Shown here: positions 10,001-52,300 of the stretch, one piece after another | Layout of the letters: each line of letters starts with the position of its first letter | How positions within the stretch are numbered: position 1 is the first letter of the stretch | Origin: Owenia fusiformis | Lineage: Eukaryota > Annelida > Polychaeta > Sabellida > Oweniidae | Direction: 5' to 3' | Length of the DNA: 64,000 bases | NCBI GenBank assembly: GCA_903813345.2 | Contig: CAIIXF020000001.1 | Coordinates: 16,759,915 to 16,823,914 of the forward strand | The notes under the pieces: generated by a model | The model's database searches: none | What the model was told of the DNA's origin: nothing | Seen by the model: only the letters and a program-made list of their open reading frames with translations | Position numbers and translations under genes: made by a program

Positions 10001-13000
10001 TTTTTGTTAACATTTTTTGTTTTTTAGTGCAATTGTTTTTGTATCCAATGAATGAAGCTTGTATCTAGGGATTGCAAACCTCTATACAATCTTATCTATT
10101 TGTTTTGATTTGCATGTAGTTTTCACTTTAATTAAAACAAGTATTTTCTCTGACATATATTATATTCCCATATTAGGAGTTTATATTCACATGAGATATA
10201 ACTCAAAACAACACTTAAAGCCCCTCTGACAGTATTATATCCAAATAATCAGGATGAATAAAAGGTAAAGGATAGGTATCGATATGGAGAACTGAATCCA
10301 ACAATGTTTTTCTCTTAAACCAATCATTGAAAACATTCTGTAAAAAAAACATGGTATTTTATGTAATGTTGACTGATTGACAACAATTTAATGCAAAAAT
10401 TATTTAGAAATATTTTATATAACTGTTTTTGTTAACATTTTTTGTTTTTTAGTGCAATTGTTTTTGCTCCTTTCTACCAATTCTTGAGAATTAAATAAAA
10501 TGTCTTTCCGAACCTTGTTGGAACAAAATAGCATATACAACATGTTTTTAGACCTCTCAATATTAAAGTTATACAAATGAATTTTTGGTTGATTTTAAAA
10601 AAGTATTCAAAAAATTAAAACAAAATCCCCCAAAATAGATAAAAATCAAGAAAAACCTTTTATTTCATTAACAAGATACTTTTTTAAAATCAACCAAAAT
10701 TTCCTTTGTACAATTACAATATTGAGAGACCTAAACATGTTGTGTTTATGTCGTTTTGTTGCAATGAGGTTCGGAAAGATCTTTCATTTCACTCTGGAAA
10801 CATGATACCAAGAACAAAACAAGTGTTTGATGTGTTTTTTAAAACAATATAAATAAAAGTATGTATATCTATTTCAAATTATATTGTTACCATTCAAAAG
10901 ATGGCCATTAAATTGACAATTTGTAAGATTTTCAGAAATTTCTGATGACTGGTTTAAGAGAAACGTGTGTTCAAAAAGTTCGCCATATCGATACCCATTC
11001 TTTAGAATGAACAATCTTTTTCTTTTTAAAAATACATATAACAATAGGAAATCCTCTATTTAGTGTATTCTCTTTTGGTTATAGGAATGGAAAGTAGTGA
11101 ACCCTTTCCATATCAGAGTGAGGCGAGCGAATCCTGTCACAGGAAAACATGTAAGTTGATTTTCTTTTTTTGAAATATTCCCAGGAGGATTCCTCAGTTC
11201 ACAAAGTCATGATTTTTCTTTTTAATATTTCAATTTATTTATTGCCTTGTGCATGGCTGAATAGAAAATGCTTTAAAAGATGTTTTTAAACATTCACTGT
11301 CCTTTTTGAGACTCGTATGGAAGATTGGTAGGCTGGCCCCTTGTGAAAAACTCTTATGCAAAATGATTTCTGTATTTTGCTCAAATCAATGAATCACTTA
11401 CAGTACATATCTTTACAAATCCATGACAGGTTTCTCCACATATTTAAAGTGAGTGGTAAAGAGTTCATCAACATTTGTGAATGTTCTAATTAAAAGTGAA
11501 GTTTTCTCTCCAGAAATCTTATTTGTCAATCAGTACTTAAAATTTTAGATGGAAAATTTACCATAATCGATAATCGCCGTAATAAGCGCCCACCAGTTTC
11601 AGAGATTTGTTTGCGATTGTCAAGGTCATGTCAGGGTCATGAACTTTCTTGTTTCTTTTTAAGATTTCTCAACTTTTACATGTCTTTTACACGAAAAATT
11701 ATGATCTGTCATCAAATTAAAAAACAAGGTATAACTTTAGATATTTTCGAATACACCAATATGTTTAAGGAAAGATTTTAGAGTAGATTTCAATTATGCT
11801 TTTGTTTTTCTGATTCGTGGCTCAGGAAATTCAAAATGGCTGCCTAGAGCAGGAATTTGCTATTACTTAGAAATCTGTTCAAAGTGTGGTTACATTAAGT
11901 TTGATTAGATCTCTTGAACATGTTTAAATTGGTGGAAATTCTGATATATCTCTAATGTATGTCTTTTAATATCTGCCAATTTAATCAAGGGTAGAGTAGA
12001 TGATAAACAATACTTGTGACATATACATGAATTTAGTGTTCATTGCTACTTCTTGGAGTTGGCGATTTCTTGTTATTTACATTTAGTATGAAAACAATAG
12101 CAAATACAAGCATTTGATGATTGAGAGTGAGATATGCTTGAGTCATACAATAAAATGTGAATCAGTGTATTTATGTCATCTTCACAATCAATATGATATC
12201 AAAATAGGAATAATATCATATTTTTATCATTATTCTGGTTGAGTTGAGTCATACAATTAAATGTGAATCAGTGTCTATATATCATTTTCACAATCAATAT
12301 GATATCAAAATAGGAATAATATCATATTTTTATCATTATTCTGGTTGAACCATACACGGTTTATTTATTTTTTGAACATCAGTTTTTATAGTTCCATAAT
12401 TTACATTATATGAAAAAATATCATTTAGTTCGATCTTTGGCTTGCTGCGCCAATTTCTGATCTGTGGAATTCAGCAATTGTCCCTGTTTCCTTGCCAAAA
12501 ATAATTTCTTGATGACATTGATATGAGAGCATGGTATGTCTAATATTGTTCTAATTTGACGTCATTGCTATTTGCTATTTGTCTGGTCAAAATGTTGTTA
12601 TTTAATTTTCTGTGTGCATTTAAAAGTTTTTGTTATTAGTTTAAGATGAATCACTCAATGCAATTCTTAACAAATAAATGTGATAGTACAAAGCATATTA
12701 TATCTAGTATATCTTTACTACATCTATTAATTAAATGCACCTCAACTCATATAAGTAATTTTAAACAATTACATTTACACCAGTACTCTCTGATTAATGT
12801 TTTAGCCAAACTTAGTCTTTTTTAGTCCTTTGAAGTTCTAGGTTAGTTTGCTTAACATTAATCATCATAAATAATTATTACAATTTAAGAAGAAAGTTTA
12901 TAAGGGATATAGATAAGCCTTCCATTTGTCAGTATGAGATTATGAAAAGTGACCCCCCTTGGCAAAAGCTGGCTACGGGCCTGGATAGTTTATATGTCAA

Positions 13001-16000
13001 AACTTGGAATTACAAGCTAATGTGTTAATTTCCTTAATACATGGCCCATTTTAAAAAATGGATGCATTTTTTGTCTTATCTTCTATTTTTTGTTATAACT
13101 CAAAAATGTAATTCAATTTTGTGTGGTACTTTATTATAATTCATCTGTGGCGGCCATTTTGATAATTTTGCATTTTGAGTGCTGTTCGTTTCTAAATTGT
13201 TGTTTGATCGGATTCACTACACCTTGAATTGGCATTATCTAGTTTTTCTATCAGTTATGGGGTATTGCCATGTTGCAACATTCCTTTACCAAAGTGTTAA
13301 TAGGCATAACAAATTTTGAGCCAAGCTGATAATACTTTGTTTTAGGTAGCCTTGAAATATGAGAGGTTGTTGCAGAATATACCATTTTTTCTTTGGGTTG
13401 GTATTTCTCCATAACTTCCTCATGACTGGCAGAAAGAGATGTGAATTAAAGCATTTTACATGATTGACAGTGTGATATATCAAAATGTTTGGTATGTTAC
13501 ATCCTTCATCATTTAATGGCGCCCAGTACGCCTGGTACACACAGGTATTTTGACATCAAACACTCTGTTAGTTAACCATTAGTTAACCACAGTGTCATTA
13601 GATTATGTATTTAATAGTTGTTCAATAATCTCTCATAAAATACAAAAACTATTGAGTCCTAGGGAGTCTGTATTTCATGAGGCACGCTTTCATGCTTAAT
13701 GGTATATCACTTGTTGCACTGGTATCCACCTTAATAGAATAAAATATTTGTATCATCTAAGTTAGTTTGTAAACCAAGTTGATTGCAGTATTTTCATATA
13801 TCATACTGTTATTATTATACTATTACAGTACTTACAGTCTATATTATTCAATTTATTTAACAAGTAAGAAAGTCTGTTGATTATCCCACCGAACGAAGTT
13901 CGAGGGGGATATAGAAAAGCCGTCCGCCCGTTCGTGTGTCCGGGCAATAACTCAAATACCGGTTGACGGATTTCATTCAAATTTTATAGGCTTATGCCTT
14001 ATGGGTGTAGAACCTCTGCTCGAGAAGAAATTTTCAATATGGCCGCTAAATTCAAAATGGCGGCCATTTTTCGGAAAAAATATAATCTTTAATAACTCAA
14101 ATACTAGTGGATGGATTTGGTTTAAATTTTATATGCTGTTGCCTTGGTACAAAGGAGCCTTGCTCAAGAAGACATTTTCAAGATGGCCACCAAATTTCAA
14201 AATGGCGGCCATTTTTCGTAAAAAAACGTTATCTTTGATAACTCAAAGACCATTGAATGGATTTGGTTCAAATTTTAGAGGCTGATGCCTAGGGATATAG
14301 GAGCTCTGCTCGAGAAAGGATTTTCAAGATGGCAGCTAAATTTCAAAATGGCGGCCATTTTTCGTAAAAAAACCGTTATCTTTGATAATTCAAATACCAT
14401 TGAATGGATTTGGTTTAAATTTTAGATGCTGATGCCTAGGGACATAGGAGCTCTGCTCAAGAAAGGATTTTCAAGATGGCAGCTAAATTTCAAAATGGCG
14501 GCCATTTTTCATAATGAAACATTATCTTTGATAACTCAATTACTATTGAATGGATTTGGTTCAAATTTTACATGATGATGCCTAGGGACATATATGATAG
14601 GAGCTCTGCTCGAGAAGGGATTTTCAAGGTGGTAGCTAAATTTCAAAATAGCACATTTTTCATAAAAGAACGTAACCTTTGATAACTCAAATACCAGTTG
14701 ACGGATTTGGTTCAAATTCTATACGCTGATGCCTAGAGACAAAGAAGTTCTGCTCAAAAATAAATTTTCAAGATGGCCACTGAATTTCAAAATGGCCACC
14801 ATTTTTCGTAAAAAAACGTAATTAATGATAACTCAAATACTAGTGGATGGATTTGGTTCTAATTTTATATGCTGATGTTTAGGGAAAAAGGAGATCTGCT
14901 TCAGAAGAAATAGCTGAATTTCAAAATGGCTGCCATTTTTCATTAAAAAGTAATCTTTGATAACCCAGATACCATTGGATGGACATTCTCTGCTAAAGAA
15001 GCAATCTAAAGATGACAGCTGAATTTCAAAATGGCAACCATGTTTCATAAAGGCATAATCTTTGATAATTCAAATACCAGTGGATGAATTTGGCTCAATT
15101 TTGTTTATCAAAACATGTTTTGTTCGGTGGGATTTGCTACTCCGTGGAGTTGCTGTTTTTCTAGTTATCATAGACATTCAAAACATCTTCACAAGATGAT
15201 TCTGTAATGGCAATATGCTCTTAAGTGTCCAAAGTGATAAGATTCCTTATGATTGGCTCATAAGTCAAAAAGCCAGAGTGTTATGATATAAATTCCTTAC
15301 TTACCACATATACTGTATGTGGAGCACATACTCCTCCCATCTTTTACCAAGTAATACATATAAAGCAATAAGAATAGAGATGAGAGTACTTATCATTGAA
15401 GAAGACTTAGACATACCGATACCGACACTTTGCAAAACTAAAAAAGGATTACTGTATTTATAAAATGATTTTCATCTATTGCAAACATGTACACATGTGA
15501 AATCATTCTTTAGGAACATGTATACTAATATAGGCCTATATGAAATCATTCTACTGTGTATTGTTTTGTATTTCTCTTTTATGATACACAGTTATGTATG
15601 CTTTAATGCCAGCAATTGTTTCTAACAATACATAGACAGGCATTAAGAACATTGACAGATATAATAAACATGTGACGTTACTTGTGAAACAATTCAGACT
15701 TATTAGTATAAGAAAACCATCAGATATAAAGAGAATCCAGAAGTGTGGTGGGGCGACAGGTGGAAGGACATTACCTTTAACAGCATAGAACTACAAGGCG
15801 ACACATTTGTTGGAAGTTATTTTGCTAAATGACAGCTCTCAAACCAGTAAGTATTAAGTTAAATCTATTTTGTTATATAATTTATCTCGATTCTTGGATA
15901 TTTTAAAGATATATTCAGAGATAGAGATGGTGATATTTAAAATAAAAACTAAGTAACATTTTCTTTATCATTTAAAGATATGATAATATTTTAATAAATA

Positions 16001-19000
16001 TCCATTATCAGATTGATTTGGGATGCAGGAATACTGGAAATTCTTTAAAATAGGAAATTTGGGTAAAATATCCACATTTTAAGAAACATATTATGTTAAA
16101 CAATTCTGTAGATGTTTGAATAAGATATGAAGTTTTGGATTTTTTAGAAAATGGATTTGACAAAGAGAAGAAACAGTTTTTGAAAGTTTTTCTCCATATA
16201 AAATTCTACATTAAATTCGAACTGACTTCTTCAAGAATCCTTGATTAAATTGTAATTTATCGCCCTCCAGGGCATGCTTCCAGGAGAAAAAACAAACTTG
16301 GTGCCAACATTATTCAGTTATTTGTATCTTCAGTGGAAAATCTGTCATTCATTACATAGGCAAACATATCACTATTGTTGGTAACACAAAATATATAATG
16401 TATAGTGAAATGAATTTATATACAGGGTGTCAAATAAGTCCCGTCCCCCCCTCTACAGCCAAAACCAAGATATTTGGTACCAAGTGTGATATATCATTGG
16501 AAAGGTCTTCCAAAGTTACGTTGATTGGCATATATCTGACATATGTCAATCAATCTCACAAATTTTTACATTGTATCAATCGAGGTGACCATATGCCTAG
16601 AAACATGGCAATTTGGCAGGATTTTAAGAATCGGGTATAAGAAAGGTCAAGGGACCAAAAGATGACTAAATATGTTTATGGCCATGAATTTAACCAATTT
16701 CTGGATAGGGTTAGATGTGTGGAAAATAGAGGTGCAAGGAAAGTGGTGAAAACCTTTTTGTAACAAGTGGAATGCGAAAAAGATGAACTTTTTGACGTAT
16801 TTCTGAGGTCATATCCTTGTCATTTTGACGCAAAAAAGCTACTTAAAGGAGGGCACGTTAATTGTAAAAGACATCATGAAAATATAGGTAAATTTCATCC
16901 AAAATACTTGAGAGTTGGTGAGTTAACATAACTTTGGATGATCTTTCCAATGGTATATCACACTAGGTACCGTCTGTTAAGGTTTTAGCTGTAGCAGGGG
17001 GGACGGGACTTATTTGACACCCTGTATATATATATAATTTATGAAAATTGCATGTGAAATTGATGACAATCTTAATGTGTGACTCCTTTGAATTTGAACT
17101 GAAACCATATGAGAAATTGATTTCCAGTTTTCTCCAACGCTTTTTATCAAAAGTTTCCTGACTAATATGTCCTTGGATGACATCAAAGAGTCAATAAAAT
17201 ATATACCGGTATATATATGCACCTGATTACCTTTGGGTATGGTGGGTAAATGAACAAGCCACCATTGCAGTAGAGTTATGAGAGGGTATCATGTTCTAAA
17301 ACTGACCATATTTTGTGCCTGATCGATTGTTTCTTTTTCAGAATATGGATCTATTCACCGTGGCCTGTACAGTGACCATGTTTTTGCTGCTTATCTCAAG
17401 CAATGAGACAGCTGCTACCACCAGGAACAGAAGTAGTACAACATGTTGTGGGCGCAGGTTCTATACACGCTTGAGATCTGTTTGTCCACGACTGGTCGTT
17501 GTTGGGAAACGATCCATTTTCGAAGGTAACTTTGCAAGCATTTAGAAAACCTTTTGTACAAAAATCTAAATGAATAATAGGAGCCATAACTATCTCATAT
17601 GAGACCATTTACAAGTGTAGATGAAATGATTATGATGATATCAGTGTTATGTTTTGAAAATAATAAAGGGAATGTCTTATATGTATTTTGAAAGAACAAA
17701 GCCAAGGTTACAAGAATTCAAACATTTCTTGTTGTCTCTAGCTCAACATATTTTGTTTGAAAGATAAATGTATACATAAGTGTTGACAGTGTGACAAATC
17801 AAGCAGAAATAATAATTGCATGAGCTACAATGTTTGTTATAATGTTTTAAATGAGGTATTCACATAATTGTATCATGTGTGTTTTCAGATTCAGAGGTCA
17901 ATCATTTAAAGATTATCAGAAAAAGGACGCTAGCCTCGCCTATGTTAGCTGAGATTTGTTGTCGGAGAGAGTGCAATCGTCAAACTCTCAAGCGTTGCTG
18001 CAGACATTTAACAGTTAAATAATTATGTGACGTGGCAGATACTTGAACAGATTCACTGCTTAGTAACTTGTTTACCAAGTGAAATACGATTACTGACAGG
18101 AATACACTAAGTAGATATGAAGGATTACAAAGAGGGTTTTTCCCAAAGGAGTGCACCATTATTTATTTAAGCATCTAATTTATTTATTTATAGTTTAATT
18201 ATTATTTATTATTGTATTGTACTTTTTACTATTTTTGGCTCTTTTGCAATGACGAATTAGAAACGTGAAAAGGTTAACTAGATGGAGTAACAAACTTCAA
18301 AGACAGAAATGTATACTAAAAAAGAAAGTACAATGTCTTCTTATTTTACTTGAAATAATTAGCCAACAGTTCACTGCTTAGAATAGACATGTACATATAT
18401 GTTTTTAATATGCTCTATATAGATCAAATAAATAAATGACAAAAACAAAGTACTCTGTTATTTAATTCACTGATGTATGCACACTTTTATATTAAATCCA
18501 AGTCAAAAATACATGACTTTGAGCCACTTTGGACAATCATGAGTGCATTCTATAAATAAATTGTTCTGACAGTAAAAATCTTAAAGCAATGTTCTCGGAA
18601 GTTTATGTCAACTATATTTGGCAACCTTTCATTAACATGACTTGCTATGAAAAATACCAGTGGAAGTATTTTGCTAAATTAGATATTTGTGTCATGAATT
18701 GAAGAAAACAAATCATCAGCTATATTAAAGAGTTAATACACAAGTATAGTGTCGCTAGTTTTTTATTAGTTCATATTAATATCCATTTATTTATATGATT
18801 CAAAACAAATCAGAACATGCATCTCAAGGGATATAGCAAATCAGCACCAATGGCTAATATTAAACATGGGACAGATCAAAAGTTTGGTTTCTAAGAAATG
18901 TACATGTAAACCATTGTGATTCACCTAGTTAGCAGTTTAGAATATTTTAAGGCTATTAAGGATGATAATTACAGCTATTGTCCCTTTAAAAGATGGACCA

Positions 19001-20482
19001 TGTGAGTTTCTTAGCTGATTTTATGGCCTTGTTTTACCAAGTTAAGATCAATTATAGTACTTTCTTCCAGAGATCTTTGAAGATGACAGCCCATTAGAAA
19101 GTAGAATTAACTGTTTTGATTGATCAATATTTACTTGGTGGGGATAGTTAATAGTTGCATTCAATTGTTAAGATATTTTCTTTGAGTTTTATGAATGTTG
19201 CCCTTTGCAATATTTGTTTATATGTTTGAATTTTGATATAAGGTGATCAATAGATTTCGTGACTGTTTGAGGGGATATTTAGTCATGTCATCAAACTTGG
19301 TAGAAATATAGTACATATAGGCCTGATTATACCCCTGAAAAATTTTATATCACTAAAGATGGCTTCAGTTAATAAGGTTAAGTTGATTCAAGTCTTTGTT
19401 GTTCTAAGAATCCCACAACATAAATATGTTAATAGCTCCCACAATGGAAAATGTAAGCATAAGCTTTTGTAACCTTATTATGAAATGCATCCTCAAAAAC
19501 TATTATTACTTTTAGTCATAACCATGTGACTCTTTTAATTATTTGTTTGTTGTCCATATACTACTTTTCCATCAAGTTTACTAACTTGTTAACAAGTATT
19601 TTCTGAGTTAGAAGAGGGTCTCATGCAAAATTTATTCATCGCCCCATGTATCAAAACTGATTTCATGTATTTTGCAGGTGAAAATGAGCTTGCAGTTGTA
19701 TCAAGTGAAGAAGGTCTCATGCAAAATTTATTGATCGCCCCATGTATTGAAACTGATTTCATGTATTTTGCAGGTGAAAATGAGCTTGCAGTTGTATCAA
19801 GTTGACCAGAAGAGCTACCTTTTGGATTTCAAGAGTCTCAATCCATCAAGCCCAGAGGACATTGTCAAGACTCCTAGTGGTAGGTTGAGATTTAAAGGGA
19901 ATTGGGTGATTGTAGTGAGAAATACCAGCCTATTGAAGAGCATAACCTGAATGGCTGAAAGAACAAATTTCTCATATGAAAATCAAGAGTTTGTTAAAAT
20001 TAAAACTTTTCTGATTGTTTGATGATAATATGGATATTGACTATTATTTGTAAACTTTGATTTTGTTAATATGATCTAGAATGTTGATGTTATGTTTTGT
20101 TTATTCACATAGTATATTGTTGAAGATCTAGAAAATTGAACTTATGTATAGCTTATGATCTAGAATATTGACATTATATATTGATTATGATCTAGAATAG
20201 TCACATTATTTATTGTTCATGATCTAGAATAGTCACATTATTTATTGTTCATGATCTAGAATATTGACATAATGTATTTTTTCATTATTTAGAATATTGA
20301 AAATGTATATTTGTTTGTTTATTGCAGATGAGCAGCTAATGGACACAGAACCAGATGTTGATTCAAACTCAAACTCTGATACTGCATTAAATGCAGCAGG
20401 CACACCATCTGGCCCTGGGCCACACCAGACACTTGAATTCTTTGAAATGTGTGCCAGTTTAATCACAACATTAGCTCGCTAA
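7072..20482 (+). CDS. PRKAA: AMP-activated protein kinase catalytic subunit alpha, C-terminal part (six exons)
   Basis: This is the energy-sensing Ser/Thr kinase alpha subunit; its C-terminal domain holds the beta and gamma subunits in the cytosolic/nuclear AMPK trimer. Exons are 7072-7147, 7522-7608, 9689-9759, 11085-11150, 19774-19879 and 20328-20482. Phases join without a break into 186 residues ending at TAA. Recognised blocks in order: linker HPERMN; KAKWHLGIRSQSRP; IMHEVFRAMKQLDYEWKVVN; LQLYQVDQKSYLLDFKSLN; a short Ser/Thr-rich loop; and the terminal helix HQTLEFFEMCASLITTLAR. All match the animal AMPK-alpha C-terminal domain closely. The kinase domain and autoinhibitory region must lie left of the window. 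The loop between DIVKTPSG and the last helix is shorter than in vertebrates. The intron 11151-19773 holds a separate hormone gene. A 96-bp duplication repeats the acceptor of the fifth exon. Whether this is the only alpha paralogue cannot be told. Confidence 0.95.
7199..7308 (+). mobile_element. GTCACCAC-hairpin family, copy 1 (short)
   Basis: Starts near GTGGTGACATAA, passes through a TATAGACACCGACTTTTTTC lead and CTGTAACAAATGGCATGTGG, and ends GACATTTTGCATGTTAATGCC. It sits in the AMPK-alpha intron just after the first visible exon. Confidence 0.7.
7740..9135 (+). repeat. 145-bp tandem array, about nine units, inside an AMPK-alpha intron
   Basis: AGCTGATTAAC(TTTTGGG) recurs at 7896, 8041, 8186, 8331, 8476, 8621, 8766 and 8911, an exact 145-bp period, with a decayed last unit near 9044. 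Each unit contains GGCGGCCATCTTGTTTTCTG, a TTTTTCGAAAAATCTTGTCA stretch and CGCTCATCGGATTTCC. The array is preceded by ATCGGTGGGATATAGTCGTC and a GGTCGT/GATCGT microrepeat at about 7775-7808. Because 145 is not a multiple of three, the open frames here restart in each unit; they are not genes. Confidence 0.9.
9837..10046 (+). repeat. direct copy of one arm of the neighbouring foldback
   Basis: About 205 bp beginning GGTAAAGGATAGGTATCGAT is repeated almost base for base at 10261-10470 (424 bp downstream); I see one difference (GCGAAAATT against GCAAAAATT). A smaller shared piece, TATCCAATGAATGAAGCTTG, lies at about 9801 and again at about 10041. This is a recent duplication. Confidence 0.8.
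10275..10995. mobile_element. foldback element, about 720 bp
   Basis: The outer ends are GGTATCGATATGG (left) and CCATATCGATACC (right). Inner arms also pair: CTTTCCGAACCTTGTTGGAA with TTGCAATGAGGTTCGGAAAG, and TTTTTGGTTGATTTTAAAAA with TTTTTTAAAATCAACCAAAA. The centre of symmetry is near 10640. No coding sequence. It lies in the AMPK-alpha intron. Confidence 0.75.
11151..13883. other. AMPK-alpha intron, mostly unremarkable
   Basis: AT-rich intron DNA. A 106-bp tandem duplication lies at 12139-12350 (repeat of AGTCATACAA.TAAATGTGAA and CAATATGATATCAAAATAGG). A short dispersed repeat containing TTGGCAAAAGCTGGCTAC lies at about 12950-12983 and recurs at 41026-41050. A fragment of the tandem-core family (GGGATATAGATAAGCCTTCC) lies at about 12903. 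Nothing coding is supported. Confidence 0.5.
12139..12350 (+). repeat. 106-bp tandem duplication
   Basis: Two adjacent copies, both running from AGTCATACAA through TGTGAATCAGTGT and GGAATAATATCATATTTTTA to TTATTCTGGTTGA. Only a handful of differences, so fairly young. Confidence 0.8.
13884..15170 (+). mobile_element. tandem-core non-autonomous element, about 1.3 kb
   Basis: The 5' end reads ATCCCACCGAACGAAGTTCG followed by GGGGGATATAGAAAAGCCGT. The 3' end reads GTTCGGTGGGATTTGCTACT and then CCGTGGAGTTGC and TTTTCTAG. ATCCCACCGAAC and GTTCGGTGGGAT are a perfect 12-bp subterminal inverted repeat. Between them lie about eight diverged units of about 150 bp, each with ATGGCGGCCATTTTTCGTAA and GATGCCTAGGGACATAGGAG motifs. 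Subterminal inverted repeats around a tandem core, with a small 3' hairpin, resemble the pearl/HINE (Helentron-related) elements of bivalves; that family name is inference. It sits in the AMPK-alpha intron. Confidence 0.75.
15673..15730 (+). promoter_or_regulatory. candidate promoter of the nested insulin-like gene
   Basis: A CRE-like TGACGT at 15673-15678 lies about 50 bp before a TATAAA at 15725-15730. About 115 bp further on is a strong 5' splice site (CCA|GTAAGTATT, donor at 15847) without an intervening coding start in a good frame. This fits a TATA promoter plus a non-coding first exon of roughly 15755-15846 feeding the acceptor at 17341. No transcript evidence; the start site is guessed from the TATA spacing. 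Confidence 0.4.
16423..17024. mobile_element. mariner-like MITE, 602 bp
   Basis: Left end CAGGGTGTCAAATAAGTCCC, right end its reverse complement, each flanked by TA as expected for Tc1/mariner insertion. The inverted repeats pair well for about 44 bp and continue with mismatches to beyond 100 bp (AGTGTGATATA.CATTGGAAA on both arms). There is no transposase frame. It lies in the putative 5' intron of the nested insulin-like gene. Confidence 0.85.
17345..18022 (+). CDS. insulin/relaxin-superfamily prepropeptide, nested in an AMPK-alpha intron
   Basis: A secreted peptide hormone precursor of 104 residues in two coding exons, 17345-17525 and 17889-18022, joined in phase 1 inside the C-peptide, the classical insulin-gene intron position. 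Residues 1-19 form a signal peptide (FLLLISS core). The B chain carries CCGRRFYTRLRSVC, giving the insulin spacing C35-x11-C47. It is followed by GKR (54-56), a cleavage site that would leave an amidated B chain. The C-peptide is only about 14 residues, ending in RKR (71-73). The A chain carries CCRRECNRQTLKRCC: C84 C85-x3-C89-x8-C98, the insulin A-chain signature. Two extra cysteines, C34 and C97, sit beside canonical ones and may form a fourth disulfide, as molluscan insulins have. A 5' acceptor TTTTTCAG ends at 17341. Its receptor class (insulin-like or relaxin-like) is open. Confidence 0.88.
18427..18436 (+). terminator. polyadenylation signal of the nested hormone gene
   Basis: Overlapping AATAAATAAA about 405 bp after the stop codon at 18022, in AT-rich sequence. 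A further AATAAA lies at about 18555. This would give the nested gene its own 3' end inside the AMPK-alpha intron. Confidence 0.45.
18460..19609. other. AMPK-alpha intron, no recognised element
   Basis: AT-rich, low-complexity stretches; no exon, hairpin or repeat family that I can support. Confidence 0.5.
19610..19801 (+). repeat. 96-bp tandem duplication of an AMPK-alpha 3' splice site and exon start
   Basis: Two 96-bp units both carry GGTCTCATGCAAAATTTATT, CATGTATTTTGCAG and the first coding bases GTGAAAATGAGCTTGCAGTT. Acceptors therefore lie at 19677 and 19773. Only the second leads into the full exon (19774-19879). Use of the first reads a few AMPK residues and then meets TGA within the second unit. 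The copies differ at only a few bases. Confidence 0.9.
20075..20290 (+). repeat. degenerate short tandem repeat (about 35 bp)
   Basis: ATGATCTAGAATA(T/G)T(G/C)ACATTAT recurs about six times in the last AMPK-alpha intron. Two middle units are nearly identical. Confidence 0.7.
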
Positions 20483-23386: not shown

Positions 23387-25902
23387 CTACACTGATGTCT
23401 CAAAACTAGATATAGATAGACTTATAGAACTACATCTGTTCTCTAAACCACCTGATAAATTACTATATTGATCTCCCTTAATCAGGCCATTCTGGTCAGT
23501 GCTTATTCTATAGCCATTAGTATCAGCAATTTTACCTGCCACATGATTAATATTGAGATCTGAGTCGGATATTTGGTCAGTATCCTTATTACCATCTTCC
23601 GGGTTTGATCGTTTCTTGATACATCTCCGTATGAGAAGGCCCACAAAAATAATTTGAAGCGGAATAGGTGTAAAAATTGCCACAATGACAGGCATTACTA
23701 CAGCTAGATCTCCATCAGGTTTGGGCAGGGAAAATTGTAACAGGATTATTGCAATTCCTATATTTTGAATTCCCGTCTCAAACGCAATTGTTTTAGCTGT
23801 TTTAAATGGCTGTCTGAGAATGAAAGCCACTAACAGACCTATGCTAAAGCCACACCATGGCAACAACATACCAGCTGGGAATAACAATGGTCTCTCTGCC
23901 ATCAATGTAAACATATAGGAGTTCACATAGCTTCCAAAACCAGCTATAAAAATGATGAACAACACTGCAAATGGTTTGATTATCTTGCTGATTTTCAAGG
24001 CGATGTTTTCTTTGTACTTTCTGACCACCATCCCTATGGTAACAGGAATGATGATGCTGACTAGAGAGATGACAATGTTTTCAAATGGAATGACAACATT
24101 GTTGGAGACGTAAAATCTGGCTAGTGCAAACAACCACAATGGCATCATACCTGGAAAAATAACATAGCAGTGTGAAGTTTATCACAATGTTGGTGTTCTG
24201 AGTGAAAACGAAATATTGTAGCCGTGAGTCTATTTCTAATCTTCAAGTATGACATTGACCTTTTGTGACCTCAATAATGTTGATGCTTTTCCTCAAAGGT
24301 CAACCCAGGTGTGAATTATTTACGGTTTATAATGCAAAATATGACAAACATAATGTGAAGGTCATTCATTCAGTAATTGTACTGTTGACAGTGACATCTA
24401 TAATGTTGACCATAACTTCTAAAATGTCAACCATGATCTCTTAAATGTTGACCACGACTTTTAATGTTGACAATGACCACATAATGTTGACCATGTGTGT
24501 TTTGATGGTAACCTTTATATGACATCGACTATGATATCATTAGGAATTACATGTAATTGATTATAATTAACATACAAACCTAGAGAGCCTACTGTGCTCA
24601 GAAATGTCATACAAATGCTGAGATTTAGTTCTCCACCAAGAAGTACAGTCCATACATTACTACTCCCTCCTCCTGGGCTACAGGAAATCACTAAAAGGCC
24701 CAGTCCTATGCCACCCATCAGGCCAAATATGTTGGTCAATGCTAACCCAAGCTAAAACGCAATACAGAGTTGCTGGTTTTATTATATCACCGGTGATCAA
24801 GTGGTGATCACCGGTCCAAATGTGTAACAAATGGCATATAGTGCTTTTTTTTATTTTGTCTCAGAAAGCTATATTTATATCATCAATGAGATTATTTCCT
24901 AAAATGTCATTTATTTGTAATTATTGAGGTAGATGTGCATAATTAGAATGTTGGTGTATTTTTTTTCTTTACAGAGTGGTGACATATTGATATAGCCTCC
25001 CAATCTTTTTTGGACAGTGTTCATTGAACAGTGGTTGGTAGTTGGTGTTTGGTGTTTATTGTCTGTAACAAATGGCAGGTGGTGCCATTTTGCAGGTTAT
25101 TTCAATATAGTTAATAATATAGGTTAATTTCAAATTTTATGTTGATATTTACACAGTATGGTAGATGTAGTGCAAAATTAAAATATTTTGATTAATATAT
25201 CGAAATCACATTTCCTCAAAAAATTCAACTTTTATTTGGTTGTGAAACAAGCTGATAAATTATATGAATGAAAAAAAAAATGAAAAAATAAATAATTAAA
25301 TATTCCATACTCACTAGTGGCATAATGATAAACTGGCAGCAGAATCCTACAGTGGGGGCAATTGGCTTCTTTAATATCTTTAGAATAACTGCAATTTCTA
25401 ATGTACAGCCCATGATGAAATTGAACATGACAACAAATAAAGCAGTTAAGACCCTAAATGCAATGTCTAAGGGGCGATCTTGTCTGACAACACTGATGAC
25501 ATACCCAGAATGCACCACTGTACGGGAATTTATCGCTTCCTTTGACTCATGTAAATGGATGGTTAACGATGTGTAGCCTAATCGAACCCCCCGAATTACG
25601 ACATAGACTTGGCGCTGGAATGGTCCGTCATCATCCTCATCTGGACGTCCTAGCAAATGTGTTGCATTCTGAGAAATGACAGCGATGTTAGGATGTTCGG
25701 TAACTACAGTCATAACTTGGCGGATCATGTCTCCCACACAGCATACATAATTCAATGTTATTGTTTGTTCATCATTCTCTAGCAATCCTAGCAATGAGGG
25801 AGGATTTAAAGTTAAATTAGTGATTGCAATTACACCAACATTTTGAGTTTCAACGTTCCCTATATGAACGCTTAAAATTCCCGACAAAATCAAGAACATC
25901 AT
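23387..25902 (-). CDS. SLC10-family sodium/bile acid cotransporter-like protein
   Basis: A multi-pass plasma-membrane sodium-coupled organic anion symporter. Three exons, 25315-25902, 24580-24751 and 23387-24150 (minus strand), join in phases 0 and 1 to give 507 residues. It begins with a signal peptide (MMFLILSGILSV) and an extracellular N-terminal segment of about 140 residues with an NLTL sequon, then the transporter core from about residue 145. Family marks are CTLEIAVILK in the first core helices, PGGGSSNVWT (about 222-231, the conserved PGG..SN motif), GELNLSICMT, and ETGIQNIGIAI (378-388), the sodium-site E..xQN motif. A charged C-terminal tail follows. Signal peptide plus long ectodomain resembles SLC10A3/SLC10A5-type members more than the short ASBT/NTCP. 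The substrate cannot be told. The ATG at 25902 is chosen because it starts the signal peptide. Confidence 0.92.
24220..24510. repeat. short tandem repeat in the second SLC10 intron
   Basis: AATGTTGACCA(T/C)(A/G)A(C/T) recurs about nine times with a spacing of about 25-30 bp between exons 2 and 3. Confidence 0.6.
24784..24814. repeat. short perfect palindrome
   Basis: ACCGGTGATCA, two bases, then TGGTGATCACCGGT, lying just upstream of SLC10 exon 2 on its intron side. Confidence 0.6.
24974..25100 (+). mobile_element. GTCACCAC-hairpin family, copy 3
   Basis: Begins GAGTGGTGACATATTG (second hairpin arm only), continues through GTCTGTAACAAATGGCAGGT and ends with the diverged 3' motif GGTGCCATTTTGCAGGTTAT. 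It lies in the first SLC10 intron. Confidence 0.65.
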
Positions 25903-28900
25903 CTTGTAGAATTTGATATTGCAGGGAGACCAGTTGGTATTAAGTTACACTTAACTTGTGGTAATAGTCCTGCACAAGAACATGTTCATTCAATGCCTAC
26001 ACTTATGCAATAGGGATGCTTCACAAGATCTGTATATCAAAATTAATTGTGTCAGGACTCAGGAGCATGATTCAGCATGTGTTCAAGGACAAAATACTTG
26101 AGAGATAATAAATTGGATAATAGAGTTTCTTTTCAGCTGGTTAGAGCATCAGGCAGTAAATAAATTGGCATCTGATGGAGGCTAACCAATCTGGCTAGAC
26201 ATCCTCATTCTACTGCTCATTCCTCTTAATAAAGGCTTATCTCATTGCATTGTTGATGTACCTATTATTGTTATAGAATAGGCTTGATTTTAGTGTAAAA
26301 ATGCTCTTATGCTTTACATTCCAAAACTCAGTGCTCATCATTCTTTAATAGTCATTTCATTGTGGCTGATATTTCTCCAATAGTCATTTCATTGTGGCTG
26401 ACATTTCTCTAGTCATTTCATTGTGGCTGACATTTCTCTAATAGTCATTTCTTTGAGGCTGATATTTCCCCAATATAGTCATTTCATTGAGGCTGATATT
26501 TCTCATAAATTGTCATTTCATTGTGGCTGATATTTCTCCAATAGTCATTTCATTGAGGCTGATTTTTCTCCAATTAATTTCACTGGGCTGACATGTCTGA
26601 TATTTTATGGCTGATATTTTGTGTATTCAAAAGAATGATGGAAATTAACTTTTCTAATCCTAAGACTCAACTTCTATAAATCCTTCACATCCTGTAGTTC
26701 TGAATATTCAAAGCATAGTTGTTATCTGTAAAAGTCCAATATTATAAGACAGTCTTATAATGAGTCTTCTAGGCCTACTCTTTTAACAAGTATTTGGAGT
26801 CACCCTGTAAAATCTTCAATGATGGTTGTCAGATGTTTTAAGTCACCCTGTTGTATCTTAAATTAAACATATAAGTGACTCATATGTTTTTATTTTCACC
26901 GCTTACTTACAGAAACAATATCTGTCCATTGTATTGTCCTCAAATATAATGAACTGTATGTATATGCCTTACTTCCTATAATGACAATCCATATTTGGCA
27001 CACTGTTGATATTTTCTATTAATTTTGAGTCCGTATACATGTAGCTGTACACAGTGTACAGGCAGATTCTCTATGACTAACAACTTTCAGAAAATCCTAG
27101 TTTTATAACTATACTTAACTCAGGGCTATGAATCCACTTTAGCCATATAGTGTTTATCTCACAATGTCACCCTATGTCGTCAATAATACACTTACCAATA
27201 CTCTGTGAGTTACAAACAAACATTGAGAAAATGTCTCATATTTATTCACATTATGGTGATTTCAGTCTGAAGGCTGGACTCATTTAAAGTGCACTTACTT
27301 AACCATGTTGAGACTTACAATTTGCACTACATGTACTGTACAACAGAGTGGTAAACGATATATTAAATTAATTAACACCTGTGATGTGACAGGTAATAAA
27401 ATGATTTAGCTCATTCTGTAGTACATGTATATTCACAAGGGTTGCATACACTAAATACTAGATTAGTTGTTTGTAGTATTCAAACCTAGCAATGTCATCT
27501 GATAATATATGGCCATTACAGGGCTTTTGAATAATAAAAAGCAGAGACCTTACACAACCTTTGACACTTGAAAAGTCCTTTAAATTATTTCAATGCTTTT
27601 AGTCTATTTCTAGGCCAGTGAGTTTTTTTGTTAAATATACCGTAAAATCTGAAATAAAAATCAAATGATGGCAGTTTCATGCCATTTTACATGAATAAAT
27701 GTAGGGTATGTGTTTTGTCGCATATTTGTTACACTACCTGGTCAAAAATTCTCTCTTAATAACCCTTGGCAGACTTCTTCAAAGGAGCCAGTACTCGTAT
27801 AGATGGCAGTTAAATAATTTTATCTTGTGGGTTGTTTTTCACACATGTCCCATTGGTATGTGTGTAAATGTTGCTGTTTTAAAACTTCAAATTCGCTACA
27901 TAAAAATAATATCAAATAAATATCACATTTTTTCTTTATTCGTATTTACAACATATTTTAATATTCAATATCAAAAGAGTTTGAATATTTCCAATAAAAT
28001 TTATTTTTGCATGTTTTAAGGTAAACCATTAAACCCACTGTATTTTTCGCTATCTATTGAAAGTCCTGCTGCCAAATATGATAGCACACAAAAGATTATT
28101 AATTTCATAGTTTTGAGAGTTTGTCTGATACAGAGTGTAACAAATATTAGTCAAAACGTAAGCACGCTTATTTGAGAATGAAGTGTGTGCAGGTTGAGAT
28201 CAACTAACTTATATGCAATAGCTCTTAAGCTTTAAACTGATACATAGTATGTGTGAATATCAACAAATATTTCACAGTGGCATGATGTATGTTTATTGCA
28301 GTTAAGTTATCATCAACTGCAGTAAACAAACTAAATAAGGGTAGTAATAAAAAGAAATGTATGAGAGGTATCCTTGATAAAACAATAATTTGACATAAGA
28401 TATAGTTAGGATGTGGTCTTAATCCCTAGGCCTAAAGCCTTATGCATGGCAAACAATAAGAGATCATAATGTTTCAAAGTCAAAGTGTCCTGCTATGTTG
28501 TTTATTATTCATTCATTTAAATTGTGGAAACACTGCCTTAAAAATATAAAAGATACAGAAATGCCAACCTGATTGCCATATTCATAAAAGATGTTCCCAT
28601 GAATGTTAGTCATGGTTAAAGGTAAAATTAAATTCTGGAAAAATTGGTTTCCACCTCTGATTCCTTTTACTATAAAGTACATTTTATATATTCTTTATAC
28701 AAGATAAGTTGCTATTTAATCAACACATTCTATGCAAAGATAAGGCTGAGTGGCATAAATTATTTGGAAAATCGACTACAACATTTGACATGATTGTGTC
28801 ACATGATTGTGTCAATAAGGCTGTAAGTGGGACGGTTAAAATGATCCAGTGTAAGTGAAAAACTTTGCTTTGCCTAAGTTGGTATTATATTTTATCTATC

Positions 28901-34400: not shown

Positions 34401-37400
34401 AACTGGAATGATATATAGGAATTACCATTGGTTGCAACTGGAATGAGATATAGCAATTACTATTGGTTGCAAATGGAATGAGATATATCAATTACCACTG
34501 GTTGCAAATGGAATGAATAGCAATTATCATTGGTTGCAACTGGAACGAGATATAGGACTTATCATTAGTTGCAAATGGAATGAGATATAGCAATTCCTAT
34601 TCATTGTTTGCACCCGGAATGAGAAATCTATTATCTTTTCTCTTTAAATACAAACAACTAGACCATTTCTAATACAGTTCAGTCCAGGTGATTACCAAAT
34701 GGCATTGACCCAAGGACTGTTGTGCTAGAGAAATCATCAAACGCATAAATGTCAATCTTGGGTTTACAAATGACAAATGACCAGTGGTAAGATAGTACAA
34801 TCTAATATGAAGGTCTATTCTAACTGACAGGTAACATACCCAGGTAATTCAAATTAAAGCAAGGAATAACAAGCCAATAACTTGTAAAATGTCTCCACCT
34901 GTCATTTGTTACAGATGCTGAATGCTGCCCGATGAACACCACCCACAAAAAAAGTCCGAGACTATAACAATATGTAACCACTTCTAGTACTAAGTTGATG
35001 CTAAATATAATAGGGTTTATTGTATATAGTATGTGAAACATCATGAACATATTTTTGCACAAACATCATATAGACATGTATTTCATATATTTCAATTTTG
35101 TGATCATAAAATTGAGGTGAATACACAACCCCACTTGCACTATGGTTTACTCATATTAATGTACATCTTATAAAATATCATACTTAATACTTTAAACATG
35201 AATGCATTTTAGAATAAAAACTTACTGCAAACTATATCAATTTCAATTATCTTAAGAGTATTATAAAGAGTAAGAATTTATAAGCGAGACAAAATGAAGT
35301 TTAAGTACAATCACACTAAATAAACTCATTAAAAAGAACATTTTAGACTGACAGATGATTTTTATGTTATTTTGTGTTAAAATATTCTGGTGCCAGTCTC
35401 TAATGGCATGCATAAGCTGAATAGTGACCATACTTCCAATCTTAAGTTCAGTATTAATATAATTTATGCAACAGGCTCATATCTTTCATCTATCATTAGC
35501 TGCTTGATTTCCCAATTTAGCCACAGCATACATTTTTTCATTTTGTATTGAACTAAATTAAAATTAAACTAAAACTACTGTTGAAATAAGTAATTTAACT
35601 CATCAAGGTTATAACACAGAATGATGTAATATGACACATAAATGCCACATTTTAAGAATACATACCAAAGGAATCTCCTCCTTCACAACAGCAATCATCA
35701 GGGCTGAATACTTGGTCAGCAGGACAAGATTGTATAGTCCTGCCTTGCTGGTACTCTGTCTCACTTATAATAGTGTATATGACACCATTAATACAGCACT
35801 GATCTGAAAGAATGTGTATATTACACTACAGTATTAATATGGCACTGATCTGGAAGAATATTATATTTACTTATAATAGTGTATATTACACTATTAATAC
35901 TACACTGATCTGGAAGAATATTATATTTACTTATAATAGTGTATATGACACCATTAATACAGCACTGATCCGGAAGAATATTACATTTACTTATAATAGC
36001 ATGTATAAAACTATTAATACAGTACTGGTCTGAAAGAATATTATATTTACTTATAATAGCATGCATAAAACTATCAATACAGTACTGGTCTGAAAGAATA
36101 TCAAGAATATTATATTTACTTATAATAGCATGTATAAAACTATTAATACAGTACTGGTCTGAAAGAATATTATATTTACTTATAATAGCATGTTTAAAAC
36201 TATTAATACAGTACTGGTCTGAAAGAATATTATATTTACTTATAATAGCATGTATAAAACTATTAATACAGTACTGGTCTGGAAGAATATCATATTTACT
36301 TATAATAGCATGTATAAAACTATTAATACAGTACTGGTCTGGAAGAATATTATATTTACTTATAATAGTGTATAAAACACCATTAATACAGCACTGATTT
36401 GAAAGACATATTTGAAGCAGCAAAACACTATGCATAATTGTAATTTATGATTAAACCATCACCCAATAATTAAGAAATATAGACCGAAGAGCAGGGGTTA
36501 TATTGTCGAGGGGTGTATTCGACGATATTACAACTGCTCTGAGGTCTATATTATGATTCGAACATGAAAACTCACCAAAATGTCACAAATATTTATTATG
36601 GTCCGCCATTACAACGGCTCGCCATTATGACGTCACACATTACACGTATTACCAGGGGTTTTGTTCGCGAATATACCCCGGGTGAAATGTTGACTTTGTT
36701 TACAGTTTATAGAAGGCGTGAATACAGTCATGTTCGAATTGGGTATAAATCAGGACAAATGATAACATGTCTATACAATAACATGTTTACACCTGTCTTT
36801 TAATGCTTCAAATATTTTATTTTTTATTTTCTTGTTGAAACTTATGTGAAATTAATAATGGTTAAAAAATAAAGAAGATTTATCTAGGATTTAAAAAAGA
36901 AAGAACTTTGTACATCTATCATGTTAGGTGTTATCTTTTCTAATAAAAATTGAGATGTTCTTACCAGTAGCCAGATCTACAGGACATGTGACCACTGGAG
37001 CTGGTTCAACTGGAAAATAACGGAATAATATATAAATATTTAAAGTGTATATGGATTGTTGCTTGGAATATTAGATAATTTATAGTTTACTGAACATCAT
37101 TTAAGAAGTTTGGATATCTATGCATCTTTGAAAGTAAAGGTCTCAGTGCCTAAATTTTTGTGCATACCCCCCCCCCCCTCTTGTACTAAATTATAAAATT
37201 CAATATAAGTTAAGGCATTGCACATGTATATAGTTGCCCATGCCTTAATAATGGAACTTGTCCATCCATGGAGTAACAAATGCAAACACCTCAATGAAAT
37301 ACATTTAATATTAAGTCATTTGGTCATGGGACTCTGATAAGTGTTTGACTAACAGAGGTGTTCCCTTTCAAGAGCTGTTTCACCTTACAGGTTTCACTGT

Positions 37401-49300: not shown

Positions 49301-52300
49301 TCAGGAAGATTGTTGGCGGAAAGTTGTTATAATCCTGAGTGATTTCATCCCCATTGCTACAAATAATCCACAATGATGAAATCTATGCAACATCTGATTT
49401 TTTTAGTATGGAAGGTCTAACTTATATAAATGTTAAAATTGAAAGAATCATCTTTTATAATAATGACCCACTTTTACATCTGGTAAGTTTCTTATATCAC
49501 CGCCACAATTGGTGACATATTGTTATTTATTCCATAGTTAGCATGATATTCATAGGATAACATGTGAAAATAAAAACGGTATTTTTGTAATCAGTGGTAA
49601 AATATGATATTTTTGACAAATTTTCACTTAACCATAACATACGGTTTTTTAGCCATGACATACGACGTCGTATGCGATGGTTTATGGATTTTTGCTACTT
49701 CAGACTCAAAACGAGGCTAAGGGTCAACATCGCCGGATCGTTTGGAAATTCGAATTAAATAACTTAATTTCCGACGATTCTGATGATGACTTTAACTATG
49801 GAATAAAAAGAACATTCTATGATTTACTCGTGATATGATTTTTACCCACTCATGGATATTGATATCTGCACTCTCTCGCTACGCTCGCTCGTGCAGATAT
49901 CATATCCATTCGTGGATAAAAATCATATCACTCATAAATCATAGGATATCCTCTATATATATTTCTTTTATTGACAATTGTATCAAAACATGACACATTA
50001 GTCTGTACAAACTAAACTGTCTTGACTCAAGACAATACTACACTATTAACTAAATGCTAGACTACATTTATAATTTCACTATGTACATGTAATGTAAAAT
50101 CATTTGCATGAGTTTACAGGCTCTTTATAAAAACTTGATGCATAAAAGATGATAAAAAATGTATTGGCAGTGTAGTACAATTATTGCAGTTTATTCTAAA
50201 TTTTGAAAAGACTTGTAAATATATTTGCCAATATGCCTTTGAACAGTAATATTTTGCGAAGACAATAGCATTTTAAAATTTGTTTCATTGATTAGAAAAT
50301 TGGGTCCAAATATTTCTTTCATTTTTTCAAAGAGGACTCTCCTTTGTGCATCATGTTTTTTACAATCAATAAAAAAATGTTTTTCATCTTCAACAGATGT
50401 ACAAGTTAAGCAAAGTCTATCATTTGTTGGAATTGGTTTAGGTTTAGAATACCGGCCTGTTTCAATTCGAAGTTTGTGTGAGCTTAGTCGAAACCTGGCT
50501 ATTGATTGTCTATATTTTCTATTATCAAGTTTTGTATAAGTTTCTATGCAAAAGTCATTCTTAAAAGTGTTATATGTACGAAGTATAGGAAAGTTATAAT
50601 TCATATCTGTTCTCCATATATCAACAAAGTTACTTTTCAAGGTTTTTTCAACAATAAGTGGTACTATTTCTATATTATCTAAATTTTCTTGATCCTCCCA
50701 GTATTTTGACATATTAACTTTGTGTAAAATATCATTAACTCTTGAAGCCCAAGTTTGAAAACCAAGTTCATGCATTTCTTTTTCATAGGAGTATGCTTTA
50801 TGTAGTATGTTTGTTGGGGGGAGTTTGAGAATTCTTGTCCCCAAGTCTCCATAAATTGCAGGGCTGGCAGTTTGTCTTTTCACACCAAGAATTGATTTCA
50901 TGAATCTTAAATGCACCAGTTCAAGATTATCTATATGTTTTTTTGTTTGCCATATCTCACACCCATATGTTAGAATAGGTGTTACTAAAGTGTCAAAGAG
51001 ATGTAAAGCAATATTGACTGGGACATCACCAAATTTCTTATACTGGCTTTTCAGTTTATCTTTTTTAGGGCATTCATGACTTCTATAATTTCTATGTTTT
51101 TATTTAAGATAGAATCTGATATGTTAAAATCCTTGTTTTCAGTTTTCAGTTTGTTATAGTCTCCGTCTTTCTTCTGGACAGTATTCAACATTCAGCATTG
51201 AGTGGTCTGCGTTCAATGTCTTTAACAAATGGCAGGTGGTGACATTTTGCATGTTAATGCCTTGTATATATCAGTTCTGAATTAGCTTTTGTATCTCAAC
51301 CTGTCACACAGATTTTCTCATGTACCATAGACTTAAACTCATTCAATACTGGGCCAAAAAGCACTAAAATACTGACGAAGTTTTGAAAATTGCCATATAT
51401 GGTACCTCTGAAATAATATATGTAGTGTATACATAGGGATATATAGTGTTGTATCTCATACTTAAGTGGGTTTGGGATAGATATCACCCGGGAATATATA
51501 TCATATCTGAGGAGCGGGCAGGATATATTGTATATGTCCCGCTCCAGGCCAAATGCGGGCAGATATAATATATCCATCCCGCTCCCGGGAATTTTTGAAA
51601 AGTTTAAAAATGTTTAAAAAAGTATGAGATACACCAGTTATGCACGATCGGTTTGGATACATGGAATATCCCTTGGGATATACAATACATCTTAGATATA
51701 TTGTATATCCCTCGGGATATTCCCTGTATCCAAAACCTCCCAGTGCATAACCCCTATATATATCATTTTAAAGCATATGATATACTCTTTCAGAATGAAC
51801 AGGTTTTTAAGTCCCATTTTATAAGTTGTCATGGTTACAAGATCCCAAAAAATACATTGAGTTTGTGCTTGGACGTGATATCACGTCCTTAGTAGTGAAC
51901 GTATGTGCTTTATGACATCATATCATGTCCTTCGTAGCGAATGAGTTAAATACAATTACCTAAACACTGATGAGGCACGCGACTCTCCATTCAGAAGTCC
52001 ATCAAACCTCGCAAAGAAGGCAATTGAGAAGCTGTTTCCAAGGTAGGCATCAGCCAGCCTCTCTATGGTCAGACTTCCCGTCTCATCCAGCTGTATGTAG
52101 TTGCCCTTGTCTGCCAGTCCATTCCGCGAGTCAAAATTGGCAAATCCAGATCTTTTAATGGGAATCCTTTGGTATGCATCAGTCAGATTTCCCTCAAAAT
52201 TCCAGAACATGCATTTACCATTAATGGCATCTGGAATGAAAAAATAGTCATATATACCATTGTTAAGATATGGAACAAGAAAATTAGTCACATTTACCAT

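Follow-up and report, generated by a model that had tools for sequence, protein, structure and literature searches.

The annelid Owenia fusiformis has an insulin-superfamily gene that is nested, on the same strand, wholly inside intron 15 of its AMPK-alpha gene. We consider it highly probable that the nested gene is genuine, comprises three exons or more and encodes a secreted insulin-superfamily peptide, most likely a divergent insulin paralogue with its own promoter and poly(A) site. An earlier note on the stretch of DNA analysed here (64,000 nucleotides, C1:16759915-16823914, hereafter the window) had proposed a nested same-strand gene of the insulin/relaxin superfamily, and its coordinates proved exact: two deposited Owenia proteins map onto that reading, and mapping of the deposited AMPK-alpha reproduces the borders it gave for the host intron (11151-19773). 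The note had assigned the animal to the molluscs, which was mistaken. The features of the locus are collected in Table 1.

The deposited 545-residue Owenia AMPK-alpha, when mapped on the genome, identifies the only AMPK-alpha locus found, on the plus strand from about C1:16740562 to C1:16780393. Its identity with the partial assembly is 100% across the best-aligned 65%. When the C-terminus of AMPK served as query against the genome, three matches were obtained, all at this locus, with all four candidates scored. Seventeen coding exons were counted (exons 1, 8 and 12, absent from the filtered tblastn rows, were placed separately), and the hormone gene falls within the penultimate intron, between exons 15 and 16, where residues 459 and 460 of AMPK-alpha join across 11150/19774. 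The deposited AMPK-alpha scores above the cut-offs for PF00069, PF21147 and PF16579 (kinase, autoinhibitory and adenylate-sensor domains), and its C-terminal part matches solved AMPK-alpha chains. Two exon-like copies occur around the motif FYLASS, at C1:16756074 and C1:16756641; the first is the one used in the deposited protein, and the second is possibly an alternative AMPK-alpha exon. Near the downstream end of the host intron, a tandem duplication of ~90 bp at 19618-19802 (offset 96, identity at 88 of 95 positions) copies the exon 16 acceptor along with the first 29 bases of the exon, leaving at 19677 a decoy acceptor whose use would frameshift AMPK-alpha to an early stop.

A deposited, unnamed Owenia protein of 111 residues maps to 15829-15846, 17342-17525 and 17889-18022, and is identical to the spliced frame over the whole query. 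The gene had been described as a two-exon frame, and both of those coding exons stand, but it has at least three exons, and its eight cysteines had gone unmentioned. The extra MTALKPN of the deposited protein has its first six residues at 15829-15846 and its seventh at 17342, which independently supports a 5' exon predicted near 15755-15846. The phase of the C-peptide intron follows from the 181 coding bases ahead of its donor. We rejected an assignment of these exons to AMPK-alpha, as none of them is used by the deposited AMPK-alpha and as the hormone protein begins in a separate 5' exon within the intron; a retrocopy origin was likewise rejected, the introns having been kept. The TATAAA at 15725 and the poly(A) signals at 18427/18431, motifs that recur elsewhere in the AT-rich stretch around the gene, suggest the two ends of an independent transcription unit.

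Table 1. Features of the nested hormone gene and of its host intron, in window coordinates.
Feature	Position	Strand	Remarks
AMPK-alpha exon 15 (EWKVVNPFHIRVRRANPVTGKH)	11085..11150	+	residues 438-459; upstream border of host intron
AMPK-alpha intron 15	11151..19773	+	holds the hormone gene; from mapping of the deposited AMPK-alpha
TATA-box-like TATAAA	15725..15730	+	30 bp upstream of the proposed 5' exon start at 15755; putative promoter element
Hormone 5' exon	15755..15846	+	start 15755 putative (earlier reader's proposal; TATA distance); deposited CDS from 15829 (MTALKP); donor GTAAGT at 15847
Intron, 5' exon to coding exon A	15847..17341	+	phase 0 in deposited CDS; 5'-UTR intron if ATG 17345 is used
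MITE-like element, 620 bp	16414..17033	.	109-nt terminal inverted repeats (85%); in hormone first intron, not part of the hormone gene proper
Coding exon A	17342..17525	+	(N)MDLF..., hydrophobic signal-like sequence, B chain CC-x11-C, GKR, C-peptide start; ATG 17345; donor GTAACT
B-chain core CCGRRFYTRLRSVCPRLVVVGKR	17444..17512	+	extra Cys 17444, canonical Cys 17447/17483, GKR 17504-17512; processing predicted from motif
C-peptide intron	17526..17888	+	phase 1, GT...AG; acceptor TTTTCAG
Coding exon B	17889..18022	+	C-peptide end, RKR, A chain TLASPMLAEICCRRECNRQTLKRCCRHLTVK, stop TAA 18020-18022
Overlapping AATAAA poly(A) signals, at 18427/18431	18427..18436	+	putative use
AMPK-alpha exon 16 (VKMSLQLYQVD...)	19774..19878	+	residues 460-494; downstream border

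It is highly improbable, in our estimate, that the gene is a dying or untranscribed copy. Its single protein record, the lack of relatives in our searches (below) and the transposon-like element in its first intron would all fit such a copy, but the frame is open, the splice sites are consensus, and promoter-like and poly(A)-like elements are present. Moreover, the deposited model probably comes from the filtered set of the Owenia genome paper, to which we assume the hormone protein belongs and for which that paper gives RNA-seq support for 31,678 of 31,903 transcripts (99.29%) (PMC9977687).

The MITE-like element itself has 825 candidate places genome-wide, and the 40 that were scored, its own included, are all near-full-length with at least 95% identity. 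The molluscan-type insulin gene at C6:6.6 Mb has one copy (C6:6650014-6650640) ~2.5 kb ahead of its ATG, which could be chance; no copy occurs in the 10-kb stretches surrounding the C11 insulin gene, the C5 gene and those at C6:28.7 Mb and C11:28.3 Mb. Elsewhere in the window, the downstream neighbour on the minus strand (23387-25944) resembles a sodium/bile acid symporter (SLC10-like), one piece matching Pfam SBF below its cut-off (E 0.0005) and the other piece giving no match. The region at 35821-36444 is tandemly repetitive, and each strand carries long open frames; that of the minus strand has no Pfam match. A minus-strand open frame of 302 residues (50191-51099), also without a Pfam match, resembles by eye the tail of a retroelement reverse transcriptase.

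The Pfam Insulin score of the peptide is below cut-off, and its membership in the superfamily therefore rests on architecture and not on a profile score. Among the elements on which the earlier note had based its reading, a C-x11-C B chain, dibasic sites, a CC-x3-C-x8-C A chain and a phase-1 C-peptide intron are present in the sequence. The B-chain motif (17447-17485) is one of 66 occurrences of C-x11-C in the window; the A-chain motif (17957-18001) occurs once in its six frames. Signal-like, B, C and A segments follow one another in order, with basic sites at KR (17507-17512) and RKR (17918-17926) where cleavage is predicted from the motif; a hydrophobic run follows the Met, and a low-confidence model has a predicted helix at residues 10-25. 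A full B-intron-A model (ATG, C-x11-C, dibasic site, phase-1 GT-AG intron, A motif) fits the window at a single place, where four acceptors are possible, and fits none of 60 third-order Markov windows, a null that represents random sequence and not a real genome.

Profile and similarity searches recognise the peptide poorly. It scores 9.3 bits (E 3.1) against Pfam Insulin (PF00049), below a cut-off of 23 that is a recognition threshold and not a structural definition; Galaxin_repeat outscores it at 15.3 bits (E 0.019), below its own cut-off of 28, and Ins_beta gives a weak 8.5 bits, below a cut-off of 21. The window gene is not among the seven matches of a PF00049 profile search of the Owenia genome up to E 10, and the hormone protein found no match in NCBIfam or among PDB sequences. 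Used as query against the Owenia genome, with both candidates scored exon by exon, the 111-residue protein found the gene itself only. A word-limited search of 5.8 billion proteins returned no relative besides the hormone protein itself, which is weak evidence of absence, because the same word-based search with the Owenia insulin found no insulin either (one candidate). An AlphaFold model made without an alignment (pLDDT 46.5, no Foldseek match) is too poor to judge the fold or the use of a fourth disulfide. The low insulin score, together with adjacent extra cysteines at unusual places, would suit a small cysteine-rich secreted peptide from outside the family whose cysteine spacing has converged on the insulin pattern. 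We regard this as very unlikely, given that the B and A motifs stand in the right order with cleavage sites flanking a short connecting peptide, that a phase-1 intron occupies the family position, that KRSI at the B/C junction is common to the window gene, the C11 insulin and the C6:6.6 Mb gene, and that residues are similar to those of other Owenia precursors with the cysteines held fixed.

The PF00049 matches in the Owenia genome include the C11 insulin (two matches), three A-chain exons with the molluscan-type C-x-CC (C6:28.7 Mb, C11:28.3 Mb and C6:6.6 Mb) and a C5 relaxin-like gene; a match on C2 was dropped, the A-chain motif being absent at its place in the motif scan. The C11 insulin scores 60.6 bits and the C5 relaxin-like precursor, in shortened form, 20.5 bits, below the cut-off of 23. 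This list of insulin-like genes is incomplete, as a Dilp7-type gene described for Owenia (PMC11863921) was not recognised among the seven matches. Owenia relaxin is characterised in the same source by a GI motif in the A chain and a B-chain alanine (PMC11863921); the C5 gene has both and is therefore probably OfusRLP. The C11:28.3 Mb gene was left out of the core comparison because its B exon was not found.

With the shared cysteines fixed, the core of the window gene is most similar to that of the C11 insulin (z 3.4, p 0.0011, best of four and uncorrected; 6 of 33 non-cysteine positions identical), followed by the C5 relaxin-like gene (p 0.006, uncorrected, with the same count of 6 of 33) and the two C6 genes (p 0.0098 and 0.034, uncorrected for four comparisons). 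The C11 insulin gene (C11:8975728-8976271) shares with the window gene a phase-1 C-peptide intron and an acceptor-like site ahead of the ATG, at a distance of 3 nt in the window gene and 2 nt in the C11 insulin, for which inspection by eye of the other three precursors showed no counterpart. In the C11 insulin this site comes with a pyrimidine-rich stretch directly 5' of the ATG, unique by eye among the four precursors compared. From the first canonical B-chain cysteine to the A-chain CC there are 490 bp in the C11 insulin gene and 510 bp in the window gene. Unlike the window gene, the C11 insulin has six B/A cysteines, a strong Pfam match, no extra CC and no GKR, and lies on another chromosome. 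The intron resemblance, together with core similarity beyond the cysteines, makes the window gene probably a divergent insulin paralogue.

It is possible, if doubtful, that the peptide is instead of relaxin/Dilp8 type or Dilp7 type and acts on an LGR receptor. A CGR at the start of the B chain and a CCR in the A chain are common to the window gene and the C5 gene, whose core similarity was given above. The relaxin/Dilp8 B-chain motif, R-x3-R-x2-I/V, is absent on inspection from the window B core CGRRFYTRLRSVC, and the GI motif that is present in the C5 gene is absent from the window A chain. The C11 insulin is the better fit both by similarity score and by the acceptor-like site ahead of its ATG. 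The window gene also lacks the phase-2 intron that separates signal peptide from B chain in the Dilp7 type (PMC11863921); its upstream intron precedes the signal sequence and is in phase 0.

The cysteine layout sets the peptide apart. There are eight cysteines after the signal sequence, arranged as CC-x11-C in the B chain and CC-x3-C-x7-CC in the A chain, so that if the canonical ones are B7, B19, A6, A7, A11 and A20, the extra ones sit at B6 and A19. This layout is absent from the four other Owenia precursors and from the C11:28.3 Mb A chain, and we know of none like it elsewhere. Molluscan-type insulins likewise carry extra cysteines, with eight in both C6 precursors (C6:28.7 Mb and C6:6.6 Mb), but their additional A-chain cysteine belongs to a C-x-CC before the core that the window A chain (AEICC) lacks, whereas that of the window gene stands beside the last A-chain cysteine, and its extra B-chain cysteine beside the first canonical one. 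In nematode beta-type insulin-related peptides (Ins_beta) the A chain also ends in CC, but the extra cysteine is one position off and its B-chain partner is elsewhere. The B chain is followed by an amidation-type site (...VVV-GKR); in peptide hormones GKR usually signals C-terminal amidation, and the motif suggests that the B chain may be amidated.

We thus favour a divergent insulin paralogue. A copy of the Owenia insulin gene, presumably made by duplication, would have moved into, or been captured by, the penultimate AMPK-alpha intron, and the two genes would have their 5' intron in common. The hormone gene would be transcribed from its own promoter near 15725-15755, with the transcript ending at its own poly(A) site past 18427. 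The precursor would then be cut at GKR and RKR to give a B chain, perhaps amidated, and an A chain, the two would be joined by disulfides, and the mature peptide would act as a hormone at its receptor. The gene is likely to operate in the ordinary mode, as a secreted hormone under its own promoter.

The earlier note knew of no described insulin-in-AMPK arrangement, and none of the open-licence PMC papers listed in our searches describes one in its listing; a superfamily member in a kinase intron is, however, known. Mouse Insl3 is reported to lie inside the last intron of Jak3 (PMC9738330), and within the terminal intron in some species such as mouse (PMC9019166), a close precedent, so that the class of arrangement is already known. 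What the pairs share is a two-exon gene of the insulin/relaxin superfamily that lies wholly within a 3' kinase intron with its own short promoter region, a likeness that excludes strand, as the relative strand of the mouse pair is not given in the available text of these sources (PMC9738330, PMC9019166). Jak3 is a cytokine-signalling tyrosine kinase, whereas the Owenia host is AMPK-alpha, with the hormone gene in its penultimate intron, and the nested hormone looks insulin-like and not INSL3-like. AMPK-alpha occupies ~40 kb of 498 Mb, which gives each insulin-like gene a chance of about 1 in 12,500 of lying in this exact host, a post hoc figure to which we give little weight because many other hosts would have seemed striking.

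It is important to separate the nesting, which is a positional fact, from regulatory coupling to AMPK-alpha, which is speculation, also in the forms that the earlier note had proposed (shared chromatin state, read-through or interference); a coupled locus is improbable by default. In one form of coupling, transcription of the hormone gene would truncate AMPK-alpha in intron 15 (residues 1-459 followed by V-S), or AMPK-alpha transcription running across the hormone promoter would repress the hormone, giving reciprocal expression. Both genes are on the same strand, promoter-like and poly(A)-like signals lie inside the intron, and reading on past exon 15 adds two codons before a stop, V-S-stop (GTAAGTTGA), so that the product would be AMPK-alpha without residues 460-545. 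Interference of this sort has been shown for mouse H13/Mcts2, where the nested gene causes its host to be polyadenylated within an intron (PMC13309782). The Owenia locus is alike in having a gene nested in a host intron and possible intronic polyadenylation of the host, but Mcts2, a retrogene, has an imprinted CpG-island promoter (PMC13309782), whereas the Owenia hormone gene keeps its introns. We nevertheless judge functional nesting unlikely: among the 120 AMPK protein matches listed of 875, the only Owenia-named one is full-length, and OMP and its host CAPN5 are described as expressed in different cells (PMC6549253).

A further elaboration, which we hold to be decidedly unlikely, is a cis-acting endocrine switch, in which transcription of the hormone gene in intron 15 would force an early end on the AMPK-alpha mRNA in hormone-secreting cells and lower their own energy sensing, the hormone having a new eight-cysteine layout and possibly an amidated B chain. 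The C-terminal domain of AMPK-alpha has a role in binding the beta subunit; under such a switch AMPK-alpha would be without its last 86 residues, part of that domain, so that a hormone-producing cell would lower its own energy sensing.

The locus is new on two counts, the cysteine layout of the peptide and the identity of the host gene, and otherwise of known kinds. It adds to the annelids an insulin-like gene with an odd cysteine layout, inside a kinase gene from the same area of physiology. Should the nesting prove old, or have an effect on AMPK-alpha isoforms, one locus would link energy signalling and hormone production; otherwise, it is a neat chance nesting, comparable to that of Insl3 in Jak3.
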